Assembly (NCBI GenBank): GCA_003225295.1
Contig: QHYZ01000086.1
Span: forward strand, 1-61,753
Direction of reading: 5' to 3'
Length of the DNA stretch: 61,753 nucleotides
Source of the DNA: Acidobacteriota bacterium
Lineage (GTDB): Bacteria > Acidobacteriota > Terriglobia > Acidiferrales > UBA7541
The notes beneath the pieces are model-generated. The model was not told the origin of the DNA and ran no database searches. It was given only the letters and a program-made list of their open reading frames with translations. A program made the translations under genes and the position numbers. This document shows, in pieces, positions 24,742 to 55,952 of this stretch. Every line of letters starts with the position of its first letter. Within the stretch, counting starts at the first letter, position 1.

Positions 24742-24919
24742 TCAGCGCGGCTTCTTGTGCTGCTCGATATAATTCTTGAGAATGTTGCGGGGGGCGCTGC
24801 CGCAACTGGCGGCGAAATAGGAAGGTGACCACAACACGCTTTGCCAATAGCGGCGCGCTAAATCAGGTCGCTCCTCCCCGGAGCATGCCACTGGAAACGG
24901 CTTTGAGCGAATTGACCTG
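24742..24919 (-). pseudogene. tnpA: IS200-type TnpA (Y1 transposase), frameshifted C-terminal relic
   Basis: On the minus strand the frame from 24919 reads QVNSLKAVSSGMLR and soon hits a stop; one base out of phase it continues ERPDLARRYWQSVLW-SPSYFAASCGSAPRN and ends with YIEQHKKPR at the TGA 24742-24744. Joined, these match the end of IS200/IS605 TnpA (NSLKGVSSRxLR ... LWSPSYFAxSCGGAP ... YIE). One extra C in the run at 24876-24879 explains the shift. The catalytic HUH motif and most of the protein are missing, so this is a dead relic. It lies between the ADOP permease and the phosphatase. Confidence 0.85.
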
Positions 24920-25034: not shown

Positions 25035-27692
25035 CTATTCGTAACGCAGGGCGACCATGGGGTCGACACGCATGGCGCGGCGTGCCGGCACGTAGGACGC
25101 GGCAAGGGCCACGAGCAACAAAAGAATCGTGACGCCCGCGAAGGTCAGCGGGTCGTTTGCCGGAACGCCGTAGAGCAGGCCGGTCATCAGCCGTGTCAAC
25201 CCCAGAGCGGCGACCACGCCGATGGCCACCCCGCCGAGGGCCAGTGTAGTTCCCTGGCGCAGCACCAGGCTTAGCACGTCTTGGTGTTGTGCACCGAGCG
25301 CGACGCGAATTCCAATCTCGCGTGTGCGCTGGGCCACGGAATAGGCGGTGACTCCGTAGAGCCCCACGGTGGCCAGGGTGAGAGCAAGACCCGCGAAGAG
25401 ACCTAGCAGGAGGACGTTGAACGCCTGCGCGGCCACTGAAGCGGAACGTACCTGCGACATGGTGCGCATCCGCGAAATCGGCAGATCCTTGTCGATGCTC
25501 CAAATGGCATCGCGCACCTCCGAGGACACCGAAACAGGGTTGCCCGCTGAGCGGACCACCCAGTCACGCAACAAACCGTTCCCCTCGAATTGCGAGACCG
25601 AGAAATACATCGTTGGCCGGGGACGACTGGCGACGTCGAATTCACGAAGGTCTCCGATGACTCCCACGACTTGCAGCCAGGGCGCATGTTCATCGGGCGA
25701 GCCCTCGTTGATGCGCTTGCCGAGCGGATCTTCGTTCGGCCAGTAAGTACGCGCCATGCTCTGATTGATTACCACCACCTGCTGGGTTCCTGGCGTGTCG
25801 CTCCAGGAGAAGTCCCTTCCGGCAATCAAGGGAATCGCCATCGTTTCGAAGTATCCGGGAGAAACGATGTCATAGTCGGCCATAGGTAGTGCCCCGGGTA
25901 GTGCCACGGGACGGCCGTCGATGCGGAAACCTTTGCTCGCCCGATAAAGAGTCAGCGGCAAAAATGAGATGGCAGCGGCGTGTTGCACGCCGGGGAGAGT
26001 TCCAATTTTGTCCAAAGCCAGCTGGTAGTAAGCCGCTCTTTGCGACAATTGGGTGTACTTTTCGCCTCGCGGAATGACGCGGAACGTCAGCAGACCTTCT
26101 GGCTGGAATCCCAACGGAACTCGCTCAAGAGCCAGGAAGCTGCGGAGAAGAAGCCCGCCGCCGACCAGTACGACAACACCCAGCGCGGTTTCCGCTACGA
26201 TCAGCAAGTGGCGTACCCGCAGGCCCGAACCGGCTGGGGATTCGCGGGCTCCCTCTTTTAATGAGTCGCGCAAATTGCTCCGCGTCGCGGCGAGGGCGGG
26301 CGCGATTCCAAAGAGCAAGGCGGCCAAGAGCGAAATCGCCAGGGTAAACGCAAGCACTGTTCCATTGACGCCGATATCGCCGAAGAGCGGAAGGTCATGC
26401 GGGCTGATCGCCTGCAGCGCCTTCATGCCCCAGAGCGCTAGGAGCAGGCCCGAGCCACCACCTAGGAACGCAAGAAGCATGTTTTCCGTCAGCAGCTGGC
26501 GGAGAATGCGCATACGGTGGGCCCCGAGCGCCACACGCACAGCAATTTCACGCCTGCGTGCGGAAGCGCGGGCCATCAACAGATTCGCGACGTTGGCGCA
26601 AACCATGAGAAGGACAAAACCGACGGCACCAAGAAGAACTAAAAGAGCAGTGCGCACGTTCCCGACGATCTGATCGTGCAGCGAAACCAGATTGACACCA
26701 ACACCCGTGTTTGACTGCGGATACTGGTCGGCGAGGTGGCGCGCTACCCCATCCATGTGGGCCTGGGCCTGCGCCAGCGTCACACGAGATTTCAGTCGAG
26801 CGATGACGTTCAGATTGTGGCTCCCGTGATTGGCAAGCTGTGACGGGCTGAGGGCCAGTGGAACCCAGAGCTGGTCTTCTGGACCAGAGACGTGGAAGTT
26901 CGCGGGATCTGGGAACAGGAAATCGCGGGGCATAACGCCGACGACGGTGTAGCTGACCCCATCGAGAAGAATCTTCTTGTTCACGATTTCGGGATCTGCG
27001 CCAAAGCGGCTGACCCACAGGCCGTGGCCCATCACGACCACATGCGCACGGCCGGGGACGTCCTCGTCGGCGGTGAACACACGTCCGAAAGCAGCATTGA
27101 CCTGCAGCAGGGAAAACAGATTTGCCGAAACGGCCTCGCCCTCGACGCGCGCCGGTTCGCTGCCGCCAGTCAGATTGAAACTGCGGTCTTGGATGGCGCT
27201 CATAGCCTCAAAAACGGAGTTCTGCGTCTGCCAGTCGGCGAAATTCCCGGGCGCAGGCTCGTTTTGGTCCTTTTCATAGAACGGCAGGCGAACTTTTTCC
27301 CACACCATTACCAGACCATCAGCGTCGGGATAGGGCAGGCGCTGAAGCAGGACGACATTGACGACGGAGAAAATCGCGGTGTTGGCGCCGATGCCGAGCG
27401 CCAGAGTGAGAATAGCGATGGCGGTGAAGCTCGGATTCTTGCCGAGCATGCGCAGACCGTAGCGAACATCGGCGAGAAATTCCTCGACGGATGGCCATCG
27501 CCAGACCTTGTGGCTGTCCTCTTCAATCAAAGTTACGTTTCCAAACTCGCGACGAGCAGCCGCTGCGGCTTCCTTCCTAGACACGCCGCTCGCAACCAGC
27601 TCCTCGATCTTTTCCTCCAGGTGTTCCCGAATCTCTTCCGAGAGTTCGCCATAGAGCTTTCGCCGCGAGATCAGTTGCTTCGGCCAGTTCAT
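25035..27692 (-). CDS. ADOP-family (MacB/FtsX-like) orphan ABC permease
   Basis: An 885-residue protein. The N-terminal soluble part (about 1-75) is the ADOP prefix: EEIREHLEEKIEELVASGVS, EAAAAARREFGN. Then comes the MacB-type unit [20 protein letters not shown] with the first membrane helix, a large periplasmic domain, and the FtsX helices (about 345-480). A second periplasmic domain and helices at about 760-885 follow, ending in DPMVALRYE. ADOP proteins are duplicated permeases found without an ATPase gene; none is nearby. Export of lipids, peptides or toxins, or mechanotransduction, has been guessed from MacB. The ATG overlaps the TGA of the degenerate padR upstream. Confidence 0.92.
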   Translation of the reverse strand: MNWPKQLISRRKLYGELSEEIREHLEEKIEELVASGVSRKEAAAAARREFGNVTLIEEDSHKVWRWPSVEEFLADVRYGLRMLGKNPSFTAIAILTLALGIGANTAIFSVVNVVLLQRLPYPDADGLVMVWEKVRLPFYEKDQNEPAPGNFADWQTQNSVFEAMSAIQDRSFNLTGGSEPARVEGEAVSANLFSLLQVNAAFGRVFTADEDVPGRAHVVVMGHGLWVSRFGADPEIVNKKILLDGVSYTVVGVMPRDFLFPDPANFHVSGPEDQLWVPLALSPSQLANHGSHNLNVIARLKSRVTLAQAQAHMDGVARHLADQYPQSNTGVGVNLVSLHDQIVGNVRTALLVLLGAVGFVLLMVCANVANLLMARASARRREIAVRVALGAHRMRILRQLLTENMLLAFLGGGSGLLLALWGMKALQAISPHDLPLFGDIGVNGTVLAFTLAISLLAALLFGIAPALAATRSNLRDSLKEGARESPAGSGLRVRHLLIVAETALGVVVLVGGGLLLRSFLALERVPLGFQPEGLLTFRVIPRGEKYTQLSQRAAYYQLALDKIGTLPGVQHAAAISFLPLTLYRASKGFRIDGRPVALPGALPMADYDIVSPGYFETMAIPLIAGRDFSWSDTPGTQQVVVINQSMARTYWPNEDPLGKRINEGSPDEHAPWLQVVGVIGDLREFDVASRPRPTMYFSVSQFEGNGLLRDWVVRSAGNPVSVSSEVRDAIWSIDKDLPISRMRTMSQVRSASVAAQAFNVLLLGLFAGLALTLATVGLYGVTAYSVAQRTREIGIRVALGAQHQDVLSLVLRQGTTLALGGVAIGVVAALGLTRLMTGLLYGVPANDPLTFAGVTILLLLVALAASYVPARRAMRVDPMVALRYE

Positions 27693-27853
27693 GATTCACC
27701 CGGCCCCAAGACTCGCGTAATTCCTTCGAGCGTTCGCCTGAAACTCGACACTTCCCTTTCCAGGTGCTCTTCGATCTGCAGCAAATCGCTGGAGGTTCGC
27801 CCCAGGGTGTAGCCGTGCAGGGGCTGTCGTTCGAGCGTTCGAAGAACCATCAT
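27689..27853 (-). pseudogene. Internally deleted PadR-family regulator
   Basis: Minus strand from ATG at 27853, 54 residues: MMVLRTLERQPLHGYTLG, then RTSSDLLQIEE, then HLEREVSSFRRTLEGITRVL and the stop. The first part matches helices of PadR (compare LILKTLALEPMHGYGIAVRL in the intact regulator at 44879) and the last part matches the PadR C-terminal helix. About 40 residues between them (recognition helix and wing) and a few near the start are gone. The TGA overlaps the ATG of the ADOP gene, as in intact padR-adop pairs. It may now serve only as a translational leader. Confidence 0.72.
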
Positions 27854-44580: not shown

Positions 44581-44821
44581 GCAGGCAGCACTCGTTCGGC
44601 GAGCGTCGACGGTGGGTGACGCTACTCGAGTGAGTAATACCGCGCAGGTGATCCGTCTTGTTGTCTTTGCTGGCCCCCGCGTGACCGACCCCATCCCTTA
44701 ACGCCCCGGCGAGCCGTGGATGTAACGGCCGGCAAACGTCAGGAACACTGGCCGCGGCCTCTACCGGTTCTCATGGCCCTTACGGTGGTCTCTCAAAGTG
44801 AAGACTGCCGTGGTTCTCCTC

Positions 44822-44849
44822 TTGACAATCAGTAGGAGAGGTGTATTCT
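44822..44849 (+). promoter_or_regulatory. Promoter of the padR-ADOP-ADOP operon
   Basis: TTGACA (44822-44827), 16 bases, TATTCT (44844-44849), about 30 bases before the padR ATG at 44879. It has the same general form as the promoter at 27915-27943 of the other ADOP operon, without the clear CTCTAC/GTAGAG dyad. Confidence 0.6.
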
Positions 44850-44878
44850 TCCTCCTGAACCTCAGGGGGAATGCGTCT

Positions 44879-45211
44879 ATGGCGGACAAGCCGAGTGATC
44901 TCGTCCAGGGAACTCTGGACATGCTCATTTTGAAAACGCTGGCGCTCGAACCCATGCACGGTTATGGGATCGCCGTCCGGCTCGAACAGATGAGCAAGGG
45001 CGTTTTCCGCCTGAATGCCGGTTCGCTGTTTGTCGCCTTTCAGCGGCTCGAACGAGCGGGGCTGATCAGCAGCGAATGGAAAGCCACCGAGAATAGCAGG
45101 CGCGCCAAGTATTACGTCCTAACAGACCAGGGACGAAAGAGGCTCAACAGCGAAACACGAGAATGGGGAAGGCAAGTGGCGGCGATCGCCAGAATCTTGG
45201 AGGCCTCGTAG
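44879..45211 (+). CDS. PadR-family transcriptional regulator
   Basis: A 110-residue winged-helix protein from MADKPSDLVQGTLDML. All elements are present: LILKTLALEPMHGYGIAVRL (helices 1-2), NAGSLFVAFQRLERAGLISS (recognition helix), the wing with RRAKYYVLTDQGRKRL, and a C-terminal dimerisation helix. GSLF replaces the commoner GSLYPALxRLE spelling. In acidobacteria such small PadR genes precede ADOP permease genes and probably repress the operon; the two permease genes follow after 14 bases. The earlier in-frame start at 44798 lies before the promoter and is rejected. Confidence 0.93.
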   Translation: MADKPSDLVQGTLDMLILKTLALEPMHGYGIAVRLEQMSKGVFRLNAGSLFVAFQRLERAGLISSEWKATENSRRAKYYVLTDQGRKRLNSETREWGRQVAAIARILEAS

Positions 45212-45225
45212 GGTAGGGAGGTTCC

Positions 45226-47889
45226 ATGTCATTACTGCGAAGCATGGTGGTTGGGCTCCAATCGCTGTTCCGAAAAGAGCAGGTCAGCCAGGAGCTAGAC
45301 GAAGAATTAAACGGCTTCCTGGAGATGGCCGCCGAAGAAAAGATGAAGCAGGGCATGAGCCGCAAGGATGCGCTTCGCGCCGTGCGCCTGGAGCGAGGGA
45401 ATCTCGAAACTTCGAAGGAAGTCGTGCGCTCTGCCGGCTGGGAATCTTTTGCGGAGATATGCTGGCAAGATTTGCGTTTCGCTGCTCGCATGCTGCGCAA
45501 GAACCCTAGCTTCACGGTTGTTGCCGTGCTCACGCTTGCCCTCGGCATCGGCGCCAACACAGCTATCTTCAGCGTGGTAAATGCCGTCTTACTTCGCCCA
45601 CTCCCCTATAAGGATTCAGACCAATTGGTTCAACTGATCGAGCACGATCAGAAGAGGGGCGTTGATTTCGATTGGGTCTCCTTTCCGAACTTCCACGACT
45701 GGGCCGAGCAAGGCAAAGCCTTCCAGTACATGGCCGCGTACAAGTTTCACGCGCTTAATCTTACAAATGTGAGCCAAGCCCAGATGTTATTCGGCCTAAA
45801 GGTCTCGGCCAACCTCTTGCCCACGCTTGGCGCTGAACCGATTTTGGGCCGTAACTTCCGGCCCGCTGAGGATCAGCCTGGTGGGGACCATGAAATTATC
45901 CTTAGTTATGACACTTGGAGGCAATCGTTTGGAGCCGATCCACAACTGATCGGCAAAACGCTCACTCTCAACGACCAGCCTTATACCGTCATTGGCGTGA
46001 TGCCTGCGGGTTTTAATTTTCCGCCGACGGTGCCTATTACATCGGCAGTCCCTTCAAGAAAGGCGGCGTTTTTGATTCCGCTTGGTCTCGCTGTTAATCC
46101 GGACCAGCGCGACTGGAACATGCTGGGGGTCATCGCTCGGCTTAAACCTGGCGCCACCATCGCGCAGGCACGCGCTGACTTGGATATCGTCTCCCGCAGT
46201 TTGGAAAGGCAATATCCCACTCAGAATCAGGGAATCACGGTACGAGTCGAGCCGCTGCTGAATCAAGTCGTCGGAGACATCCGTCCCGCTCTCTGGGTTT
46301 TTCTCGCAGCCATCTCGCTCGTGCTTTTGGTCGCGTGTGCGAATGTAACTAATCTGTTGCTCGCCCGCTCGACGATTCGCCAGAGAGAGATGGCACTGCG
46401 CACTTCATTAGGTGCCAGCCGATCACGGTTAGTTCGCCAACTGTTCACGGAGAGCCTGCTCCTGGCTGTCGGTGGCGGCGCATTCGGAATACTGCTTGCT
46501 TATGGTGGGATCTTGCTGCTCACTACTTTGAGTCCTGACAACCTCCCTCGCATTGGAGACGTTGCAATCGATGGCCGAGTTCTCGCCTATACGGCCGTCG
46601 TTTCTGTTTTGACGGGGATCATCTTTGGACTGGCTCCATCGCTGGGCGTTGCTCTTGTCGATGTTAGCCAACCGTTAAAAGGCCAAAGATCAACGCCAAC
46701 CCCGAAGCATTCTGGTCTCCGCAGCACGCTGGTGGTTTCCGAAGTTGCCCTGTCTTTGGCTCTTCTGATTGGCGCGGGTCTAATGCTCAAGAGTTTCGTA
46801 CGCATGGAGCGAGTCGATCCGGGCTTCAGGGCGGACAAAGTTCTAACCGTCTGGACCATCCTTTCCGAGGCTAAGTACGCGCCGCAAAAACGGGCCGCGT
46901 TCTATCAGCAAGCATGGCAACGCATTCAGGCTCTGCCTGGCGTGAAGTCGGTCGGCGCAATCGACAATCTTCCGTTGAGCGGCGTGCACGGAGGCGGTCC
47001 CTTTACCATCGAAGGTCATCCGACTACCTCAGACGCGGATGCTCCCGCCGCGTATCGTTGCGTCGTGAGCTTGAATTATTTTCAGACGATGAGTATCCCT
47101 CTGCTTCAGGGTCGAGAATTCACGGAGCACGACAGGGACGGCAGTCCCACAGCGCTCATTATCAACGAGACCGCAGCACGCCGTTACTGGCCCGCTCAAA
47201 ATCCTGTCGGCAGCCGCTTGAGTTTCACTACCGGCCGCACGCAACCGACTTGGCTTGAGATCGTTGGGGTGGTCAAGGATGTTTTGCATGATGGCCTGGA
47301 GTCACCTGCGAAACCCACAATCTATCTGACATTCCTTCAATCGCCTCAGGCGTTTATGGTAACGGTGGCGCGTACGGATGTTGATCCGGCTAGCCTGAGT
47401 CCCGCGGCCCGTGGAGCTATCGCAGCAGTGGATAAAGATCAGCCGGTCTTGATGACGCGCACGATGGCGGACATTTACTCAGACGCGGTCGCCCAACGCC
47501 GATTTAATACAGCTCTCATTGTCGCGTTCGGGGCGCTTGCCCTGCTCCTGGCCATGGTAGGCATCTACGGTCTGATGGCTTTCGCGGTGACGCAGCGTAC
47601 CCACGAGATAGGCGTGCGTATCGCGTTGGGTGCGCAACGGTGGGACGTACTGAAGCTTGTGCTTGGCCGAGGGCTCAGGCTCGCGCTCCTGGGCATCGTA
47701 TTTGGCCTGGCGGCGGCTTTCTTCCTGACTCGTTTCCTTTCTAAGCTGCTGTTTAACGTTCCGCAGACTGACCCCGCGACCTTCATTGTCGTTTCCCTGT
47801 GTTTGGGAGGGATCGCATTGCTCGCGTCTTATATCCCCGCGCGGCGGGCGATGCGTGCCGATCCGATGCTCGCACTCCGTTACGAGTGA
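45226..47889 (+). CDS. ADOP-family orphan permease, first tandem copy
   Basis: An 887-residue protein with the ADOP prefix ([21 protein letters not shown], residues about 23-43), then [20 protein letters not shown], a periplasmic MacB-like domain, the first FtsX helices (about 345-480), a second periplasmic domain and the last three helices (about 765-887), ending in DPMLALRYE. Its body resembles the permease at 25035 more than its neighbour at 47896, whereas its first 80 residues are closest to the neighbour. No ATPase gene is nearby. The start follows a GGGAGG ribosome binding site 14 bases after padR. Confidence 0.92.
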
Positions 47890-47895
47890 TAGTCC

Positions 47896-50652
47896 ATGTC
47901 ACTGCTACGAAACATATCAGACGGATTGCGATGGCTGTTCCGAAAGGAACGGGTCACCCAGGAGCTGGACGAAGAATTAAACGGCTTCCTGGAAATGGCA
48001 GCCGAAGAAAAGATGAAGCAGGGCATGGGCCGCAAGGATGCTCTTCGGGCGGTTCGATTGGAGCGAGGAAGCCTCGAAGTTACCAAGGAAATCGTCCACT
48101 CAGCCAGCTGGGAATCTTTTCTGGGGACGTGTTGGCGGGATTTGCGCTTCGCTCTCCGCATGCTCCGCAAATCGCCGGGCTTGATGTTCGCGGTCATACT
48201 ATCGCTAGGTATTGGTGTGGGAGCAAACACCGCAATCTTCAGCCTCGTCGATGCGGCGATCCTGAAACCTTTGCCGGTTGAGGACCCGGACTCGTTGCGA
48301 GTCATTGAGTGGAGCAACCCGGAGTTCCCCGAAGGAGTAAGCAACATAAACGGCGATTTCAATCAAATTTCCGGTGGTGGGGTCCAAGCATCTTCAGTAG
48401 GAGCGCATCTGTATCGTAAGTTGGCCCATGAGCAGACGGTTTTCGCAGCGCTAGTGGGAATCGCGGACTCGAACCCGGTCGGGATTGCCATCGATGCGCT
48501 CCCTGCCGAACAGGTGAGCCTGCAATACGTCAGTGACAACTTCTTTCAGGGCTTGGGGGTTTTGCCCGTTATTGGGCGGCCATTCCGCGCAGAGGAAGAC
48601 CGCGTCGGGCAAGAGCCACTGGTAGTCGTGAGCCATCGTTTCTGGGTCAGCCGACTTGGCGGCGCCGGAGACGCGTTAGACCGCAGCGTCCGCATCAACA
48701 ATGTGCCAGCTCGCATTGTTGGAGTGGCTCCGCCCGGATTCTTTGGTCTGAGGGCTGGGCAGTGGACTGACATTTACGCGCCGCTGGCAATGAGAGTTGC
48801 CTTTCAGCCTGGTCAGAGTGACGGCGCTCCGCGCGGCGAAGACGACAGTGATTGGTGGGTCCGTGAAATGGGCCGCCTGAAACCCGGCGTGTCGGAGACG
48901 GCCGCGAAGACGCAAATCGCTGGTCTGTTCCGTAGCCTCGCGGCTGAAGCCATGAACCTCGAACCGAAGAAGATTCCCGAACTGATCACTCTGTCCGGCC
49001 GCCGTGGCTTTGGTGCGCTCAACGCCAGAGATGCAAGCGCCCTGTGGATTCTGGTGCTGCTTGTTGGAGTGCTGCTGCTCATCGTCTGCGCCAACGTGGC
49101 CAATCTGCTGTTGTCCCGCTCCGTGGTTCGGCAACGCGAGTCGGCCGTGCGCCTGGCACTGGGAGCGACAAGAGCGCGGGTGTTCCGACAGCATTTGGTC
49201 GAGAGCGGAGTTTTGGCGCTTTTGGGAGGAGGAGCCGGTCTTGCATTCGGGAGTGTCCTGGCGCGAAGCATACATCTGGTCATTGAGTCTGGCCGCGACC
49301 CGAGCAGCATGTTTGACCTTCATCTCGACCTGCGGGTCTTAGGGTGCACCGGTGGGCTTTCGATCCTTACCGCACTTCTCTTTGGCTTGGCTCCGGCCGT
49401 TCAAGCTGCGCGCGCTGACCTTAATGACGCTCTCAAAGCACAGGTGGGGTCGGTGATGGGTGGCCGACTGAGGCTGCCGAAGCTCTTGGTTTCCTTGCAG
49501 ATCGCGTTATGCCTGACGGCTCTAGTCGCGGCTGGTTTGCTAGGCCGTTCACTAGAGAACCTCAGGTGGGTTGATATCGGGTTTGACCGGGAAAAGCTTG
49601 CATACGCATCCGTGAATCCCGGGCAAGCCGGATATTCGACAGAGCGCCTGGGACCCTATGTTGAGCGTGTCCGCCAGGAATTGGCCAGACTGCCCGGAGT
49701 CCTCCGAGTGAGTCCAGTTGAAGTGCGCTTGTTATCGGGCAACGGAAACTTGTCACGCGTCAGTGTTCCCGGACGCCCATCTTCGATCGAGAAGGGCGTT
49801 GTGGCGCCGACAGAGGCCGCCAATGTGAACAGCGTAGGAGACGGATTCTTCGAAACGCTGCGCATTCCTCTGATAGCTGGGAGGACGATTGAGCGGCGCG
49901 ACATTCGCCCAAATGCGGACGCAGTAGTCGTCGATGAACTTTTCACACGTCGGTTCTTCCCAAATGAGAATCCGTTGGGACGCCGCTTTGGATTCGACCC
50001 GAAGGACAGCAACCGGTACGAGATCGTCGGCGTCGTGCGCGACACTCTCTACAACAGCTTGCGCAGGGAACCGCTTCCGACGGTTTATGAACCTTATCTT
50101 CCCGATGTTAGAGACCCAATTCATTTCGCCATCCGCACAACGATGGATTCAGCCCGCCTGGCGCAAGCCGTCCGGGCCGTCGTTGCTTCCGTCGATCCGG
50201 CCGTGCCGCTGATTGAGTTTCACACGCAAAATGGTTTGATCGACCGACTACTTCGAACCGAGCGACTCTTGGCTTTGATGTCTGTAGCCTTTGGTCTCGT
50301 TGCGCTAATTCTCGCGGCGATCGGAATCGCTGGTGTACTGGCCTACGCAGTTGCTCGCCGAACAAACGAAATTGGAGTGCGAATGGCACTGGGTGCGACC
50401 GCGAGCGATGTGATTCGGATGGTGCTGCGCGACTCGCTTTGGATGGTAGGCGCTGGAATTCTCATCGGGTTTCCGTTCGCCTTCGCAATCGGGAAGCTGT
50501 TAAGGGCTATTCTTTTCCGGCTGGAGCCCTTAGATCCTTGGACGGCAACGGCAGCACTCTTCGCGCTGCTGGTGGTCACTCTCCTGGCATCTTGGCTACC
50601 CGCGCGCCGCGCGGTGTGTGTCGACCCGATAGTTGCCTTGCGCTACGAGTAA
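47896..50652 (+). CDS. ADOP-family orphan permease, second tandem copy
   Basis: A 918-residue protein that starts six bases after the first copy. Residues 1 to about 80 ([36 protein letters not shown]) are almost the same as in the first copy, at DNA level too. From the first helix on (KSPGLMFAVILSLGIGVGAN) the body belongs to a different ADOP subgroup. It keeps the two FtsX units (about 375-500 and 800-918) and ends in DPIVALRYE. A longer loop with many charged residues follows the first helix. Role unknown, presumably membrane-embedded with the first copy. Confidence 0.92.
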   Translation: MSLLRNISDGLRWLFRKERVTQELDEELNGFLEMAAEEKMKQGMGRKDALRAVRLERGSLEVTKEIVHSASWESFLGTCWRDLRFALRMLRKSPGLMFAVILSLGIGVGANTAIFSLVDAAILKPLPVEDPDSLRVIEWSNPEFPEGVSNINGDFNQISGGGVQASSVGAHLYRKLAHEQTVFAALVGIADSNPVGIAIDALPAEQVSLQYVSDNFFQGLGVLPVIGRPFRAEEDRVGQEPLVVVSHRFWVSRLGGAGDALDRSVRINNVPARIVGVAPPGFFGLRAGQWTDIYAPLAMRVAFQPGQSDGAPRGEDDSDWWVREMGRLKPGVSETAAKTQIAGLFRSLAAEAMNLEPKKIPELITLSGRRGFGALNARDASALWILVLLVGVLLLIVCANVANLLLSRSVVRQRESAVRLALGATRARVFRQHLVESGVLALLGGGAGLAFGSVLARSIHLVIESGRDPSSMFDLHLDLRVLGCTGGLSILTALLFGLAPAVQAARADLNDALKAQVGSVMGGRLRLPKLLVSLQIALCLTALVAAGLLGRSLENLRWVDIGFDREKLAYASVNPGQAGYSTERLGPYVERVRQELARLPGVLRVSPVEVRLLSGNGNLSRVSVPGRPSSIEKGVVAPTEAANVNSVGDGFFETLRIPLIAGRTIERRDIRPNADAVVVDELFTRRFFPNENPLGRRFGFDPKDSNRYEIVGVVRDTLYNSLRREPLPTVYEPYLPDVRDPIHFAIRTTMDSARLAQAVRAVVASVDPAVPLIEFHTQNGLIDRLLRTERLLALMSVAFGLVALILAAIGIAGVLAYAVARRTNEIGVRMALGATASDVIRMVLRDSLWMVGAGILIGFPFAFAIGKLLRAILFRLEPLDPWTATAALFALLVVTLLASWLPARRAVCVDPIVALRYE

Positions 50653-50767
50653 ATCATGGCTCTCAGAGAGCCTCAACGAAAGATGAAAATGGGCCCGAGA
50701 TGGCGTAGCGTTTGTGCAGCCGGGTCGGCGACAGAGGCCGACTTACTCTGGCGCCCGCAGCGCCCGC

Positions 50768-50905
50768 ATACGAGTAAATCATGTCACTGTCACTGCTGCG
50801 AAGCCTATCGGACGGATTGCCATGGCTGTTCCGAAAGGAACGGGTCACCAGGAGCTGGACGAAGAAGTAAACGGCTTCCTGAATGGTGCGCCCCGAGGTC
50901 TCAAG
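50768..50905 (+). pseudogene. Stump of a third ADOP permease
   Basis: CATACGAGTAAATCATG at 50766-50782 repeats the stop-to-start junction found at the end of the second copy (TACGAGTAAATCATG, 50644-50658). From ATG at 50781 the DNA matches the first 110 bases of the ADOP genes: LLRSLSDGLPWLFRKERVT, then a missing C shifts the frame to a stop at 50868-50870. Out of phase it continues QELDEEVNGFLNG and is lost by about 50905. It also carries a TCACTG duplication. So one further permease gene was deleted and only its junctions remain. Confidence 0.85.
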
Positions 50906-51065: not shown

Positions 51066-52283
51066 ATGAAGCGAATCGACTTTACGAATACTCAGGTGGC
51101 CTCGAGCCAAACAGCCCGAGACATCAACAGGGGTGTAGTCCTCAACCTCATCCGGCGGCGGCAGCCAATCTCACGAGCAGATCTGGCCCGGGTGTCGGGG
51201 CTTCAAAGGAGCACCGTTTCGCTGATCACCGAACAACTTATTCGTGAGCGCTGGGTGGTCCACGGGCCGATAGGGCGGCTGCCCCGAGGTCGCAGACCTA
51301 CCTTCCTCAGACTGAATGACCGGAGAGCGATCCTGGTGGCGGACCTTCGACCGCAGCAAACCAGGGTAGGCCTTGCCGACGTCAATGGCAATTTTCTCTC
51401 CCAGGAGACCATGCCCACGACGAACGACCCCCGCGCTACTGCTCAAGGTCTTGCCGCAAGAATTCGTCGCTTGATGGAGGTGCATCCCCATCTGCTTTTT
51501 GAGGGCGTGGGAATCAGCTTGCCGGGGCGCATCAGCGAGAAGACTCAGCACGTCATTTTCGCCCCGAATCTAGGGTGGCCGGATTTCGATTTGAAAGGCG
51601 CAATCGAACGAGCCACGGGCGTGCGGGTGGAGCTGGAAAACGCAGCGAATGCCTGTGCGCTCGCCGAAGTATGGTTCGGCCACACCGAGAAGATTCGCGA
51701 CTTCGTGGTCGTAACCGTCTCGGAGGGAATTGGTACCGGTGTTTTTCTGAACGGACAGCTGGTCCGCGGACGTACGGGAATGGCGGGAGAATTTGGCCAT
51801 GTCCCGCTTGATCCCAGCGGACCCTCCTGCGCTTGTGGTGGCAAGGGATGTTGGGAGGTTTACGGCTCGAATCGAGCGGCGTTGCGTTACTACCAGGAAT
51901 CGAGCGCTACCCAGCAGGAGTTGAGTTTTCAGGATTTGCTGGCATTGGCCCAGTCAGGAGATGCGCTGGCGCTCAAAGCATTGGAAAAGATGTTTCAGGC
52001 TATCGGCAGAGGCATGCGGATGATTGTCACCGGATTGGCACCGGAAGAAATTGTGGTTGTCGGGGAGCTGACTCGTCAATGGCGCCGGTTCGGTTCGCTG
52101 ATTGAAAAGGAAGTGGGAATGGGTTTTCTTGCGGGGCGGCCACCTCGGGTCAGACCGGTCGAAGGGGAAATGGCGCGTCTCCGGGGCACGGTGGCACTCG
52201 TGCTTCAAAAACATTTCGGACCTTCGGCAGGTGCACGGGAGAAAGAACACGAAAGTTCCCTTCAGGGTAAGGCCATCGCGTAG
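51066..52283 (+). CDS. ROK-family transcriptional repressor
   Basis: A 405-residue protein with an N-terminal winged helix (SRADLARVSGLQRSTVSLITEQLI, about 37-59) and a ROK sugar-kinase-like domain (about 85-390). The ROK zinc site is complete: GEFGHVPLD (H245) and CACGGKGCWE (C255, C257, C262). The catalytic Asp expected in ENDAN is an alanine here (ENAANACALAE, A193), so sugar phosphorylation is unlikely and a NagC/XylR-type repressor role fits. It lies 78 bases upstream of a TonB-dependent receptor, which it may control in response to a sugar or sugar derivative (inference). Confidence 0.9.
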   Translation: MKRIDFTNTQVASSQTARDINRGVVLNLIRRRQPISRADLARVSGLQRSTVSLITEQLIRERWVVHGPIGRLPRGRRPTFLRLNDRRAILVADLRPQQTRVGLADVNGNFLSQETMPTTNDPRATAQGLAARIRRLMEVHPHLLFEGVGISLPGRISEKTQHVIFAPNLGWPDFDLKGAIERATGVRVELENAANACALAEVWFGHTEKIRDFVVVTVSEGIGTGVFLNGQLVRGRTGMAGEFGHVPLDPSGPSCACGGKGCWEVYGSNRAALRYYQESSATQQELSFQDLLALAQSGDALALKALEKMFQAIGRGMRMIVTGLAPEEIVVVGELTRQWRRFGSLIEKEVGMGFLAGRPPRVRPVEGEMARLRGTVALVLQKHFGPSAGAREKEHESSLQGKAIA

Positions 52284-52361: not shown

Positions 52362-55300
52362 ATGTGTGGACGGCCGGTGGTTTGCAATGCGGATGTTTTT
52401 TGCAGGAAAAACAAGCTCTGGAAGTTTATTTGCGCAGTGCTGTTGATGGCATTGTGCCTTTTCCCCCGCGCGGCGAAATCGCAAATACTGTATGGATCCT
52501 TGACGGGAAACGTTGCTGACCCTTCGAACGCGGTCCTGCCGGGAGCGCGGGTGGAAGCGCTCAACACGGCAACCGGCGTGTCGCGTCAGACAACGACCGA
52601 CTCGGCTGGCGTCTATCGGTTCGCTGAACTGCAACCGGGCATCTACAAAGTGACGGTATCGGCGACGAACTTTGGTGTTTTGGTGGCGGAAAATGTGCGC
52701 GTCGATGCGAACACCACACAACGCGTGGACGTGCAACTTCGACTGATGCAACAGGTCGAAACTGTAAACGTGACCAGCGCCGCACCTTTGCTCCAGACTG
52801 ACCGCGCCGACGTGCATACGGACCTAGGTGCGAGAGAAATTACGGACCTGCCGCTCCTGGCTTCCAACGGCCGGAATTTCCAGTCGGCCTACCGCATCGT
52901 CCCCGGGGCCGGCTTGCTGGGAGAAAACAACTCGGCCGCGGGGAATCCCCAGCGGGCCATGACCACCAACGTCAACGGGCTGTCCATTAACAACAACAAC
53001 ACCCGCATTGACGGGGCTTCGGACACTTACACTTGGCTCCCGGCGAACGTCGCCTACATCCCCTCCTCAGACGCCATCGAATCGGTGAACGTGGTCACCA
53101 ACAATTTTGACGCCGAGCAAGGCCTGGCAGGCGGAGCGGCTACGACTGTGATTATTAGGTCAGGCACAAACGCCTTTCACGGGACCGCGTACGAGTACCA
53201 CACCGACAATGCGCTTCGCACGCGCAATTACTTCAGACCGACTGCCGTGCAACCCGTGAAGCCAAAGAATATCTTCAACCAGTATGGCGGCACGATTGGC
53301 GGTCCGATCAAGAAGGACCGGCTGTTCTTCTTCGGGTCCTATGAAGGCACCAAAATCCGGACAGCCGGTGGAGCCTCGCGGAGCGTCGCGCCTACCTCCA
53401 TCCGCAACGGCGATTTTTCATCGTTGATACCCGCTGGAACCAACTGCAACGTCACGCCCATGGCGGGATGCCTATACGACCCCAATACCGGAAATGCTGA
53501 CGGCACCGGTCGCACGGCTTTTCCGGGCAACATCATTCCGGCCAATCGGCTTGATCCCGCGGCGCTGAAAATGGCTTCCTTGATTCCAACACCCAATGTG
53601 GGTAATCCCAACGACCCAACGAATATCTCGAACAATTACATTCCGGTTGGAGCACCTCAGTACAATCTCAGCAGAATTGACACCAAGGCTAACTACGTGC
53701 CGAGCAAAAAGTCCATGGTGTTCGCCAGGTACAGCATTTCGCCTTCGTTTATCTTCGACCCGCCGGCTCTGGGAGCGGCGGGCGGCGACGCAACCGGCGG
53801 CGGACAGAATGGCAACGCGTTTAGCCGGGTCCAGAGCGTCGCGCTGGGAGGCAGCTATCAGCTAACTCCGGCCATGCTGTGGGATGTGAATGCCGGCTAC
53901 ACGCGGCTGCGCCTCAATGCGGAAGACACGGATATTAATACGAATTTCGGGCTCGACACCCTGCACATCCCAGGTACCAACGGAACCGACCACGCCTACG
54001 GTGGGATTCCCGCGTTCCAGATCTCAAGCTGGGCCAATCTCGGGAACGCCAACACCGGCAACCCCTTCATCTTCCGGGATAATCAATATGTGGCTAACTC
54101 GAACCTCGGCTGGACTAAGGGACGGCACGATCTGCGCTTCGGTCTGGAGTACTACCACAGCGGGATCAACCACTTCCAGCCCCAAGGCGGGACCTTTGGC
54201 ACGCCGCGCGGCACTTTTGGGTTTGACGGAAGCGTTACCGCTCTGAATGGCGGGCCGGGGGCGAATGCCTACAACAGCTTTGCCCAATTCTTGCTCGGCC
54301 TCCCGCAAAGGAATGGCAAGGTCGTCCAAAACATCAACCCGAACGCACTGCGGTTCACCACGTGGGCCTGGTATGCGCGGGACCGCTGGCAGGTGACTCC
54401 CAAGCTGACTTTCAGCTACGGCGTGCGGTGGGAATACTATCCCTTTGCAATTAGCGACCATACTGGCGTGAAGTTCTTTGATCCTACGTCGGGCAACGTT
54501 TTCATCGGGGGTCTTGGATCCGAGCCGCGGGACGATGGCGTTGACGTAGGACACGGTATGTTTGCCCCACGCTTCGGAATCGCTTACCGACTGCGGAGCA
54601 AGACCGTGATCCGCGCCGGTTACGGAATCAGCGTGGACCCCAACAACTTCCGGGCTCTGCGGGATACCTTCCCTAACATCACTAACATGGATTACCAGGG
54701 AAATTCAATCTTTCAGGCCCAATGCGGTTTCTTGGATCCCCCCACTAATAAAAAGCCAAAGCGGTGCAACTTCGCGCCGTCAGCAAGTCTCACGGGCACA
54801 AATGCCACTCTCGCTCCGTACCCGGGCCTGGCAACAGGGATAGCTCTCATACCTTTCATTGGGCTTGGCAATGGCGTGATTCGTCTACCGAACAACGTGG
54901 GGACAACCACCGTGGCCAACCCTTTCCATCGTGGGTATGCAGAGTCCTACAACCTGACCCTGCAGCATGAGTTCGCCGGTTGGGTGGCTGAGGCAGGCTA
55001 CGTGGGAACCCGCGGGATTCGCATCCCCTTGGGTCTCAACATTAACCCCGCGCCCATCGGCGGCGGAAACGGGGGACGCCTGCTGAATCGAAATCCTGCG
55101 GTCTGCCCGACCGCCAACTGCTGGGGAGACATCAACGCCGTGACACCCTTCAAGGTCACCTACTACGATTCGCTGCAGACGCGATTGACACGCCGGTTGA
55201 GCGCGGGATCGGAAGTCGGCATCGTTTACACATTCTCCAAAGCCATTGATTTTGGCGAAAACGAGGGAGCGGTGTTCCATCCGTTTCCAGGCAATTGGGG

Positions 55301-55952
55301 GGATAACAAGGCGCTCGCGAGCTTTGACCGCCCGCACAATTTCCAAAGCTACGGTGTTTATGAGTTGCCTTTCGGCCGCAACAAGCGCTGGGCACAGCAC
55401 GGCATAGGAAACATCCTCGCTGGCGGTTGGCAATTGAACTGGATTCTGAGCCGTTACAGCGGCATTCCTCTCACCATCACTTCCAACGTCAATTCGTCCA
55501 ACGCCCTCGGAAGCACGAACACGCCCGATCTTGTTGGCCCGATCGTGATACTGGGAAATGTAGAGGGGCAAGATGCGACCGGCAAGTTTGTGAGCTGTGC
55601 CCTCACGAGCACCTCCTGCCAGTATTTCCAGACGAGTTCGTTCGCAGCGGTCCCATCCGCTCAATTGCGTTACGGCACCGCCGGACGCAACATCCTTCGA
55701 GGGCCCGGCTTCTTTGACTTGGATACCGGCCTTTTGCGAAACTTCCCGATCACCGAGCGGGTGAAATTTCAATTCCGCCTGGACGCATTCGCCGCGACCA
55801 ATACGCCAAATTTTGGCAACCCGAACACGAATATTTCGAATCCTAACTTCGGGGTCATCACCAGCACGGCAAGCGGACCTCAGTTTTCTAGCGAGGCCGG
55901 CAACCTCACCGGCCAGCGCACCTTCTGGTTTTCGGGGAAGGTCATCTTCTAG
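52362..55952 (+). CDS. TonB-dependent receptor with carboxypeptidase-regulatory N-domain (Oar-like)
   Basis: A 1196-residue outer-membrane protein behind a very purine-rich GGAGGGGGGG. Its signal peptide has an unusual Cys-containing start (MCGRPVVCNADVFCRKNK) before the hydrophobic core FICAVLLMALCLFPRA. Then come the carboxypeptidase-regulatory domain (GSLTGNVADPSNAVLPGARV, about 47-130), a plug (ITDLPLLASNGRNF, LSINNNNTRIDGAS) and a barrel ending in TGQRTFWFSGKVIF. Same superfamily as the receptor at 37382 but clearly a different subgroup. It follows the ROK repressor and precedes the M28 peptidase, so a regulator, importer and hydrolase set is possible. Confidence 0.93.
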   Translation: MCGRPVVCNADVFCRKNKLWKFICAVLLMALCLFPRAAKSQILYGSLTGNVADPSNAVLPGARVEALNTATGVSRQTTTDSAGVYRFAELQPGIYKVTVSATNFGVLVAENVRVDANTTQRVDVQLRLMQQVETVNVTSAAPLLQTDRADVHTDLGAREITDLPLLASNGRNFQSAYRIVPGAGLLGENNSAAGNPQRAMTTNVNGLSINNNNTRIDGASDTYTWLPANVAYIPSSDAIESVNVVTNNFDAEQGLAGGAATTVIIRSGTNAFHGTAYEYHTDNALRTRNYFRPTAVQPVKPKNIFNQYGGTIGGPIKKDRLFFFGSYEGTKIRTAGGASRSVAPTSIRNGDFSSLIPAGTNCNVTPMAGCLYDPNTGNADGTGRTAFPGNIIPANRLDPAALKMASLIPTPNVGNPNDPTNISNNYIPVGAPQYNLSRIDTKANYVPSKKSMVFARYSISPSFIFDPPALGAAGGDATGGGQNGNAFSRVQSVALGGSYQLTPAMLWDVNAGYTRLRLNAEDTDINTNFGLDTLHIPGTNGTDHAYGGIPAFQISSWANLGNANTGNPFIFRDNQYVANSNLGWTKGRHDLRFGLEYYHSGINHFQPQGGTFGTPRGTFGFDGSVTALNGGPGANAYNSFAQFLLGLPQRNGKVVQNINPNALRFTTWAWYARDRWQVTPKLTFSYGVRWEYYPFAISDHTGVKFFDPTSGNVFIGGLGSEPRDDGVDVGHGMFAPRFGIAYRLRSKTVIRAGYGISVDPNNFRALRDTFPNITNMDYQGNSIFQAQCGFLDPPTNKKPKRCNFAPSASLTGTNATLAPYPGLATGIALIPFIGLGNGVIRLPNNVGTTTVANPFHRGYAESYNLTLQHEFAGWVAEAGYVGTRGIRIPLGLNINPAPIGGGNGGRLLNRNPAVCPTANCWGDINAVTPFKVTYYDSLQTRLTRRLSAGSEVGIVYTFSKAIDFGENEGAVFHPFPGNWGDNKALASFDRPHNFQSYGVYELPFGRNKRWAQHGIGNILAGGWQLNWILSRYSGIPLTITSNVNSSNALGSTNTPDLVGPIVILGNVEGQDATGKFVSCALTSTSCQYFQTSSFAAVPSAQLRYGTAGRNILRGPGFFDLDTGLLRNFPITERVKFQFRLDAFAATNTPNFGNPNTNISNPNFGVITSTASGPQFSSEAGNLTGQRTFWFSGKVIF

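Follow-up and report, generated by a model that had tools for sequence, protein, structure and literature searches.

The window analysed here is a stretch of 61,753 nucleotides from contig QHYZ01000086.1 of a soil Acidobacteriota bacterium (assembly GCA_003225295.1, a draft of 8.13 Mb in 385 contigs). It carries a gene for a PadR-family regulator, followed by two tandem ADOP permease genes (ADOP1 and ADOP2) and the remains of a third. It is near certain that these permeases are mosaics with a fixed seam, in which an N-terminal head and a membrane body have separate histories, and the ADOP1/ADOP2 case is one instance of a genome-wide rule. The comparisons below document recombination at the seam, a difference in body behind a shared block of PadR, ADOP1 and the head of ADOP2, and the association and covariation of heads with PadR. 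The locus is probably a PadR operon with heads like those of the HAAS-PadR system, whose permease bodies are exchanged by recombination and whose heads would be contacted by the PadR. The parts of the operon are as follows.

44815..44849 (+), putative promoter, with TTGACA at 44822-44827, a 16 bp spacer and TATTCT at 44844-44849
44815-44820 and 44834-44839 (+), palindrome TCTCCT...AGGAGA over the promoter, a possible PadR operator
44879..45211 (+), PadR-family regulator TIGR03433, 134.3 bits against a cut-off of 101.8, also matching Pfam PadR
45226..45513 (+), ADOP1 head (perm_prefix_1, NF038403), codons 1-96, 35.6 bits against a cut-off of 30
about 45462-45530 (+), equivalent of the seam in ADOP1
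45514..47889 (+), ADOP1 body with two MacB/FtsX halves, TIGR03434 at 1003.6 bits against a cut-off of 622.3, with MacB_PCD and FtsX
47896..48183 (+), ADOP2 head, of the same head family as in ADOP1, NF038403 at 34.0 bits
48132..48200 (+), seam in ADOP2, conserved stretch DLRFALRMLRKSPG..., at the switch from head history to body history
48184..50652 (+), ADOP2 body, TIGR03434 at 807.9 bits, kin to the ADOP1 body only at family level
50650..50774 (+), degraded palindromic repeat directly 3' of the last Glu codon of ADOP2; the repeat copy has TACGAG at its own end
50787..50886 (+), stump, what is left of a third head, frameshifted, of the same head family as in ADOP1 and ADOP2

The first-pass annotation of this DNA had claimed that the permeases share a conserved 5' cassette and carry different bodies, and this is confirmed. 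A direct repeat of 300 nt (45223-45522 and 47893-48192) is 78% identical without gaps. At the DNA level the two heads are 79-80% identical and the two bodies 44%, and the amino acid identity between the bodies is 34%. In the sliding-window comparison that the annotation had proposed, the profile is not uniform: the identity of 60-bp windows is 0.70-0.95 for starts at 0-210 bp and 0.52-0.68 for starts at 225-345 bp, and falls to background beyond. The excess of synonymous identity is confined to the head (43/66 codons in codons 1-96, 72/260 in the body), and four-fold sites behave likewise (18/33 identical in the head, 38/164 in the body). Neither of the results named in the annotation as refuting its claim was seen. 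The shared DNA is about 290 bp long, and similarity drops at codons ~90-100, just upstream of the first membrane helix (TM1). The perm_prefix_1 match covers residues 11-65 in both permeases, and the shared 5' DNA spans this domain to codon ~96. In a structural model of ADOP1, the head has helices at 2-41, 46-56, 60-69 and 72-92 (low confidence) and TM1 is 94-123, which places the seam after the final helix of the head and before the first membrane helix. With the ADOP2 head DNA as query, 22 places in its own genome match at E<1e-30 (counting the query, ADOP1 and the stump), far above chance.

Heads and bodies were compared separately across 124 full-length headed ADOP genes from 16 genomes, 66 (of 74) from the own genome and 58 from 15 relatives. 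These are what remains of 185 open reading frames with a head-profile match, of which 133 have a long body and 124 pass a head-coverage filter; 29 partial reading frames of the own genome were left out. The relatives come from a search of 61 genomes (own included, at most 11 matches scored per genome) with the ADOP2 head DNA, which matched at E<=0.001 in 23 genomes belonging to a single genus; for 4 of them the match is the short seam only. Since the relatives' loci were fetched by head DNA similarity, they are biased to one head type. In the own genome, 94 of the 97 head places listed score above the NF038403 cut-off (30 bits). Gene pairs in all comparisons are not independent, and a Mantel p of 0.0002 is the permutation floor.

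Head and body disagree across this set. In the own genome, pairs from the same array (n=26) have a median head identity of 0.72 and a median body identity of 0.36, and pairs from different arrays (n=2119) have medians of 0.37 and 0.35. Neighbours therefore share a head and are otherwise as unrelated as any pair of headed ADOPs. Among the 124 genes, heads are alike and bodies unlike in 318 pairs, and bodies are alike and heads unlike in 9. Bodies that are 87-89% identical exist under different heads. For example, the genes L008 4948-7782 and L022 121-3030 have bodies that are 87% identical (synonymous 0.76) and heads that are 42% identical (synonymous 0.36), and the likeness spans from the seam to the stop codon.

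A change-point scan of third-position identity that assumed no joint gave a log-likelihood (lnL) gain of at least 12 in 1425 of 7626 gene pairs (the maximum over 2000 permuted tracks was 9.96). Of these strong change-points, 1257 lie within 30 codons of the head/body joint, as do those of 302 of the 318 head-alike, body-unlike pairs. Restricted to bodies, the scan gave 9 of 7626 pairs. On a body tree of the 66 own genes, the window head type (16 genes) needs 14 changes compared with 14.3 in shuffles, and a single clade for it is rejected (lnL difference 1536, approximately unbiased (AU) test p 7e-7). The breakpoint tests and the comparison of heads with a body tree, both suggested in the annotation, agree on separate histories that meet at one seam before TM1. 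Short DNA matches to other ADOPs fall at ~48132-48182. When unrelated pairs are compared, the seam DNA (0.54-0.67 per 12 codons) and the 3' end (0.66) rank among the best conserved segments, and the exact words shared at the seam are short (the longest is 9 bases in the median and 28 at maximum, 300 pairs).

The heads are associated with the PadR genes. Of the 51 TIGR03433 genes over the cut-off in the own genome, 48 are followed by a head at no more than 300 bp, with a median gap of 49 bp, and 57 of the 97 own heads lie directly behind a PadR, with 26 behind another headed gene. The ADOP list of the own genome was taken as the top 67 of 236 candidates, of which 24 are headless, that is, without a NF038403 match within 350 bp upstream. 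A PadR lies within 900 bp of 1 of the 24 headless genes (a weak PadR); for the headed genes the figure is 27 of 43 (Fisher p 1.4e-6, with the caveat that genes of an array are not independent). None of the 24 headless genes adjoins a headed one of this list. Some headless ADOPs are in tandem with each other (e.g. G000:C69:10458-21357). Wherever two headed genes are adjacent with no intervening PadR (37 pairs, 17 in the own genome and 20 in relatives), they share the head type, with head identities of 0.56-0.87 and body identities of at most 0.41. Only 2 of 39 adjacent headed pairs have unlike heads, and in both a PadR lies in the gap.

The similarity of PadR also follows that of the heads (r=0.63 over 62 arrays, p=0.0002; own genome r=0.37 over 38 arrays, p=0.0002). 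For the last heads of 19 multi-gene arrays, which lie at least 2.6 kb from the PadR, r is 0.79 (p=0.0002), nearly that of the first heads (0.83). No significant correlation was found between PadR and body (r 0.08 over 62 arrays, -0.08 in the own genome and -0.15 for the last genes). Among pairs with like bodies (at least 0.6), 16 have unlike heads, and in the 7 of these where both PadR are known the PadR identity is 0.29-0.51; the 10 pairs with like heads have PadR identities of 0.61-1.0. A genome of another family (G043; 18 arrays, 23 genes, with 20 of 23 PadR places over the cut-off fetched) has head identities of 0.77 within arrays and 0.31 between them, and a PadR-head correlation of 0.46 (p=0.0005). 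These patterns suggest that the likely partner of a head is the PadR of its own locus, and that the match between PadR and heads is likely maintained by selection and not by linkage alone.

The promoter motif, which is of sigma-70-like type, is conserved in a 27-row alignment of PadR upstream regions. The pattern TTGAC-N14-20-TAnnnT precedes 46 of 77 PadR genes (0.84 expected from base shuffles; the copies are related, not independent) and was found upstream of none of 124 ADOP heads. Therefore, the array reads as a single PadR-controlled operon. The PadR start used here is an ATG chosen by reading; the list of open reading frames has a longer GTG start.

Neutral recombination would explain much of this with no matching of head and PadR: the two would stay joined by adjacency, and the seam would be conserved DNA where crossovers happen to fall. 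The conservation of the seam DNA among unrelated pairs and the short distance from PadR to the first head are in its favor. However, it predicts that foreign-headed or headless genes enter arrays, and none of the 37 PadR-less adjacent pairs has unlike heads and none of the 24 headless genes adjoins a headed one. By comparison, 183 of the 2119 pairs from different own arrays reach a head identity of 0.5. The longest exact seam word has a median of just 9 bases, and the last heads track the PadR nearly as well as the first. Neutral recombination is the strongest of the competing explanations and is nevertheless unlikely.

The window array was compared with a relative's array, L131 (contig JABCZF010000001.1, which is contig G016:C1). 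Positions 44816-48182 align to it unbroken at 86.6% identity over 3367 bp, and the match stops at 48182, which is codon 96 of gene 2. The identity is 0.925 for PadR (counted from 44880, one base inside the ATG), 0.84 for head 1, 0.868 for body 1 and 0.836 for head 2. It is 0.542 over the next 118 bp and 0.446 in the DNA of body 2. The flanks of the two arrays differ, and the shared block runs from PadR to head 2 only. This is read as a replacement of body 2 behind a kept head, possibly with some exchange of like heads.

Synonymous identities of the heads, which rest on small counts (~65 codons each), bear on the annotation's suggestion of gene conversion between 5' ends. Head 2 is closest to head 2 of G016 (0.80), followed by the heads of contig C259 of the own genome (0.78/0.75) and head 1 of its own array (0.67); within the G016 array, heads 1 and 2 are 0.65 identical. 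Amino acid identities of these heads (0.75-0.79) do not discriminate. Conversion between the 5' ends of ADOP1 and ADOP2 is rejected, since head 2 is closest to head 2 of G016 and head 1 to the C259 heads. The part of the suggestion that stands is recombination at the 5' end; conversion between these two heads does not, because each is nearer to the head at the same position in G016 than to the other. Head 1 is as close to C259 as to G016, so heads are not strictly fixed, and head exchange between like arrays is possible. In two genomes, the genes L111 4027-6879 and L008 4948-7782 have a synonymous identity of 0.98 in the head and 0.76 in the body, which points to a head part transferred or converted very recently.

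These cases raise the alternative that conversion or exchange of 5' ends is the main process, with heads moving and bodies staying. Recent head sharing (the L001 neighbors have a head synonymous identity of 0.91, in addition to L111/L008) speaks for it. So do the identities of the ADOP1 head, 0.82 with the C259 heads and 0.77 with the counterpart in G016, and the block shared with L131, where PadR and body 1 are both more alike than head 1. On the other hand, heads 1 and 2 of the window array are not each other's closest, and the nearest head lies in the same array for only 15 of the 101 heads that have a relative at an amino acid identity of at least 0.6. The break in gene 2 of the L131 block is also a change of body behind a matching head. 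Head movement as the main process is improbable.

The annotation had further suggested that the shared part is a recognition handle, for example for a common partner ATPase encoded elsewhere. The behavior of the head as a separable module supports the first half of this suggestion. The permeases YbbP, MacB and BceB work with ATPases, and the structure matches of the body are best with YbbAP/YbbP, then with MacB, and also with BceB (template modelling (TM) score 0.38 and lower). No ATPase domain was found in the ADOP proteins by NCBIfam and Pfam profile scans, which would also suit an ATPase supplied from another locus. However, the heads differ between arrays (median 0.37), which is unlike a handle for one shared partner, and 24 of the top 67 ADOPs are without a head match. 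Both the presence of a head and its sequence go with the adjacent PadR, and the partner ATPase is not supported, although no ATPase was searched for. A docking handle for such an enzyme is very improbable.

Strong constraint on protein or DNA could in principle keep the heads alike while the bodies of tandem duplicates diverge, and the heads do form a recognised domain with conserved positions. The data do not follow this. In 29 pairs with like heads and bodies (body at least 0.7, head at least 0.6), it is the body that is better conserved in 23 (median identity 0.81, compared with 0.76 for the head), and the synonymous identity is about equal (0.59 in the head, 0.57 in the body). The bodies of own-genome neighbors are also as distant as those of other pairs (0.36 and 0.35). 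Constraint explains neither the synonymous excess nor the pattern. As the sole cause it is refuted for this data set and has almost no probability left. A DNA-level role of the head coding sequence is likewise rejected because the like pairs have about equal synonymous identity in head and body. Assembly chimeras, conceivable in draft assemblies (385 contigs in the own genome), are rejected as just as improbable, since a given pairing of head and body is found again in a separate assembly (L111 and L008; ADOP1 of the window and L131) and exact sequence shared at the seams is short (median 9 bases, maximum 28).

The preferred explanation, a PadR operon with HAAS-PadR-like heads, draws on a published system. 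HAAS is described as a helical domain that is always coupled with a stand-alone PadR and is in some cases fused to FtsX/MacB permeases (Ravi et al. 2024, mSystems, PMC11237479). In the parts of that account used here, HAAS-PadR is proposed as an alternative to two-component systems in which the domain relays a membrane signal to PadR, on the basis of gene neighborhoods and domain analysis (PMC11237479). A second source, in the part used here, states that a sensor-fused HAAS domain releases PadR (PMC12419801). The window operon has the same neighborhood, a stand-alone PadR next to a domain-bearing membrane gene, and the same arrangement of a small helical N-terminal cytoplasmic domain. Body exchange behind heads, array-specific heads and PadR-head covariation are features of the present loci and differ from HAAS-PadR as described in the cited parts. 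By position and covariation the heads appear to fit the HAAS role and may work like a HAAS-PadR pair, as a counterpart more than as a proven member.

All three cut-offs (TIGR03434, NF038403 and TIGR03433) are exceeded at the window operon. The NCBIfam models for ADOP, PadR and prefix name the families, and modular exchange at the head/body joint is a property added here. In BceAB-BceS and similar couples, an FtsX-type permease feeds a regulator, and BceAB-S structures are among the structure matches of the body. The window operon resembles these in having an FtsX-type permease as the regulator input; here the partner would be a PadR instead of a histidine kinase, and the inputs would be exchangeable. 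In Neisseria pilE/pilS and in type I HsdS, a conserved part is kept and a variable part is recombined at conserved joints. The swap at a conserved joint is the same in the present case, with permease bodies of ~2.4 kb exchanged among arrays and species. Modular shuffling of ADOP heads and bodies was not found in searches of open-licence PubMed Central papers. HAAS-PadR pairs are already published, and the head/body shuffling would be the new element.

Several observations weigh against this explanation. At E<=0.1, the HAAS profile PF22564 was found in only 3 of 66 heads (best E-value 0.0023); one of these heads scores 16.4 bits against a cut-off of 27, and the profile gave no match to full-length ADOP1 (E<=1) or to the ADOP2 head. 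The GxP of the third HAAS helix is present in 4 of 66 heads, and the others have a near-invariant Gly without the Pro. The isolated head model is poor (predicted local distance difference test (pLDDT) 63, predicted TM score (pTM) 0.31), the head part of the ADOP1 model is mostly below 75 pLDDT, and when head alignments were searched as profiles against solved structures, nothing came up beyond designed proteins and matches at chance level. Of the 97 own heads, 14 are preceded by no PadR and no headed gene, several of these lying near contig ends. The covariation of PadR with the heads of first genes could be explained by physical linkage alone. In G043, the bodies of neighbors are somewhat alike (0.41 compared with 0.33; 8 pairs) and PadR also correlates with body (r=0.21, p=0.047), and no PadR above the TIGR03433 cut-off was found in G059 and G046. 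The change-point of body-alike, head-unlike pairs falls within 30 codons of the joint in only 6 of 9. Head 1 of the window is closer in synonymous identity to the C259 heads (0.82, 0.80, 0.79) than to its G016 counterpart (0.77). Finally, the heads of the relatives are alike by selection, as their loci were fetched on head DNA similarity, and all 12 titled relative records are Acidobacteria metagenome assemblies (6 labelled gp2).

The operon is followed by two degraded elements. The third repeat copy (50783-50881) is partial and matches ADOP2 in two pieces at 90% and 97% identity. It is one base shorter than ADOP2 near 50848, has an in-frame stop soon downstream and ends at ~codon 33. To judge from these changes it is a decayed head remnant. 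The annotation had taken it to show that the cassette existed a third time. The stump is real and of the same head family; it is only ~100 bp long, ends well before the seam and gives no evidence for the seam. The sequence beyond 50886 is without a match among the fetched loci.

The repeat at 50650-50774 (125 bp) is a decayed version of a palindromic repeat that is also found behind other ADOP genes. Copies of ~98-125 bp stand directly after TACGAG (Tyr-Glu) at the 3' end of FtsX-type permease genes; the repeat starts with TAA and in this way supplies the stop codon, with a second stop often downstream. Twenty fetched stretches gave 22 copies, of which 19 come after an ALRYE-like permease end, 1 comes after another copy, 1 after a non-permease frame and 1 is at a contig end. 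The relative G018 has 38 matches to the 25-base repeat core (at most 2 mismatches), 34 of them behind TACGAG, with copies in L163-L182, L099, L102, L103, L107 and L109. The locus L096 is an orthologue of L099 without the repeat, which suggests an empty site. Six of the 36 genomes of the genus carry the repeat. It has hairpins near both ends, which may liken it to IS200/IS605-derived or REP-like elements; a Y1 transposase search brought out no single source for the repeat.

The window also contains a Y1-type (IS200-like) transposase fragment at 24757-24876 (-). A third ADOP at 25038-27695 (-) has another head type, and a PadR was not found directly in front of it. By eye, the gene at 51066-52283 resembles one for a ROK-type repressor and that at 52362-55952 one for a large TonB-dependent outer-membrane protein.

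Taken as a PadR operon with HAAS-PadR-like heads, the locus would work as follows. A PadR with its own promoter would be expressed together with two ADOP permeases, followed by the remains of a third, each permease being a cytoplasmic head of ~95 residues and a membrane body of ~800 residues joined at a fixed seam. PadR and heads would belong together and to the locus, while bodies would be traded among arrays and species by recombination between the seam, at the joint of head and TM1, and the 3' end of the gene; like heads may at times be exchanged too. In line with the proposal for HAAS-PadR, the PadR would dock on heads encoded in its own operon, and the several bodies would be interchangeable inputs to the one regulator that controls the operon. 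Recombination at the seam would then change the input with the connection unbroken. Tentatively, such operons could be natural plug-in sensors, in which one PadR has several receptors wired to it by PadR-specific heads and the bodies are traded at the seam within and between species.

If this is true, a single recombination event would be enough to join a new input to an output already in place. PadR covaries with heads, distant ones included, and not with bodies; this is a separate argument for specific pairing of PadR and head, and it predicts the PadR that each head should bind. The bodies that are 87-89% identical under different heads are natural transplants and provide ready-made test pairs. 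The same reading would offer one explanation for the dozens of such permeases in this genome, in that the inputs may be swapped with the regulatory connection left intact.

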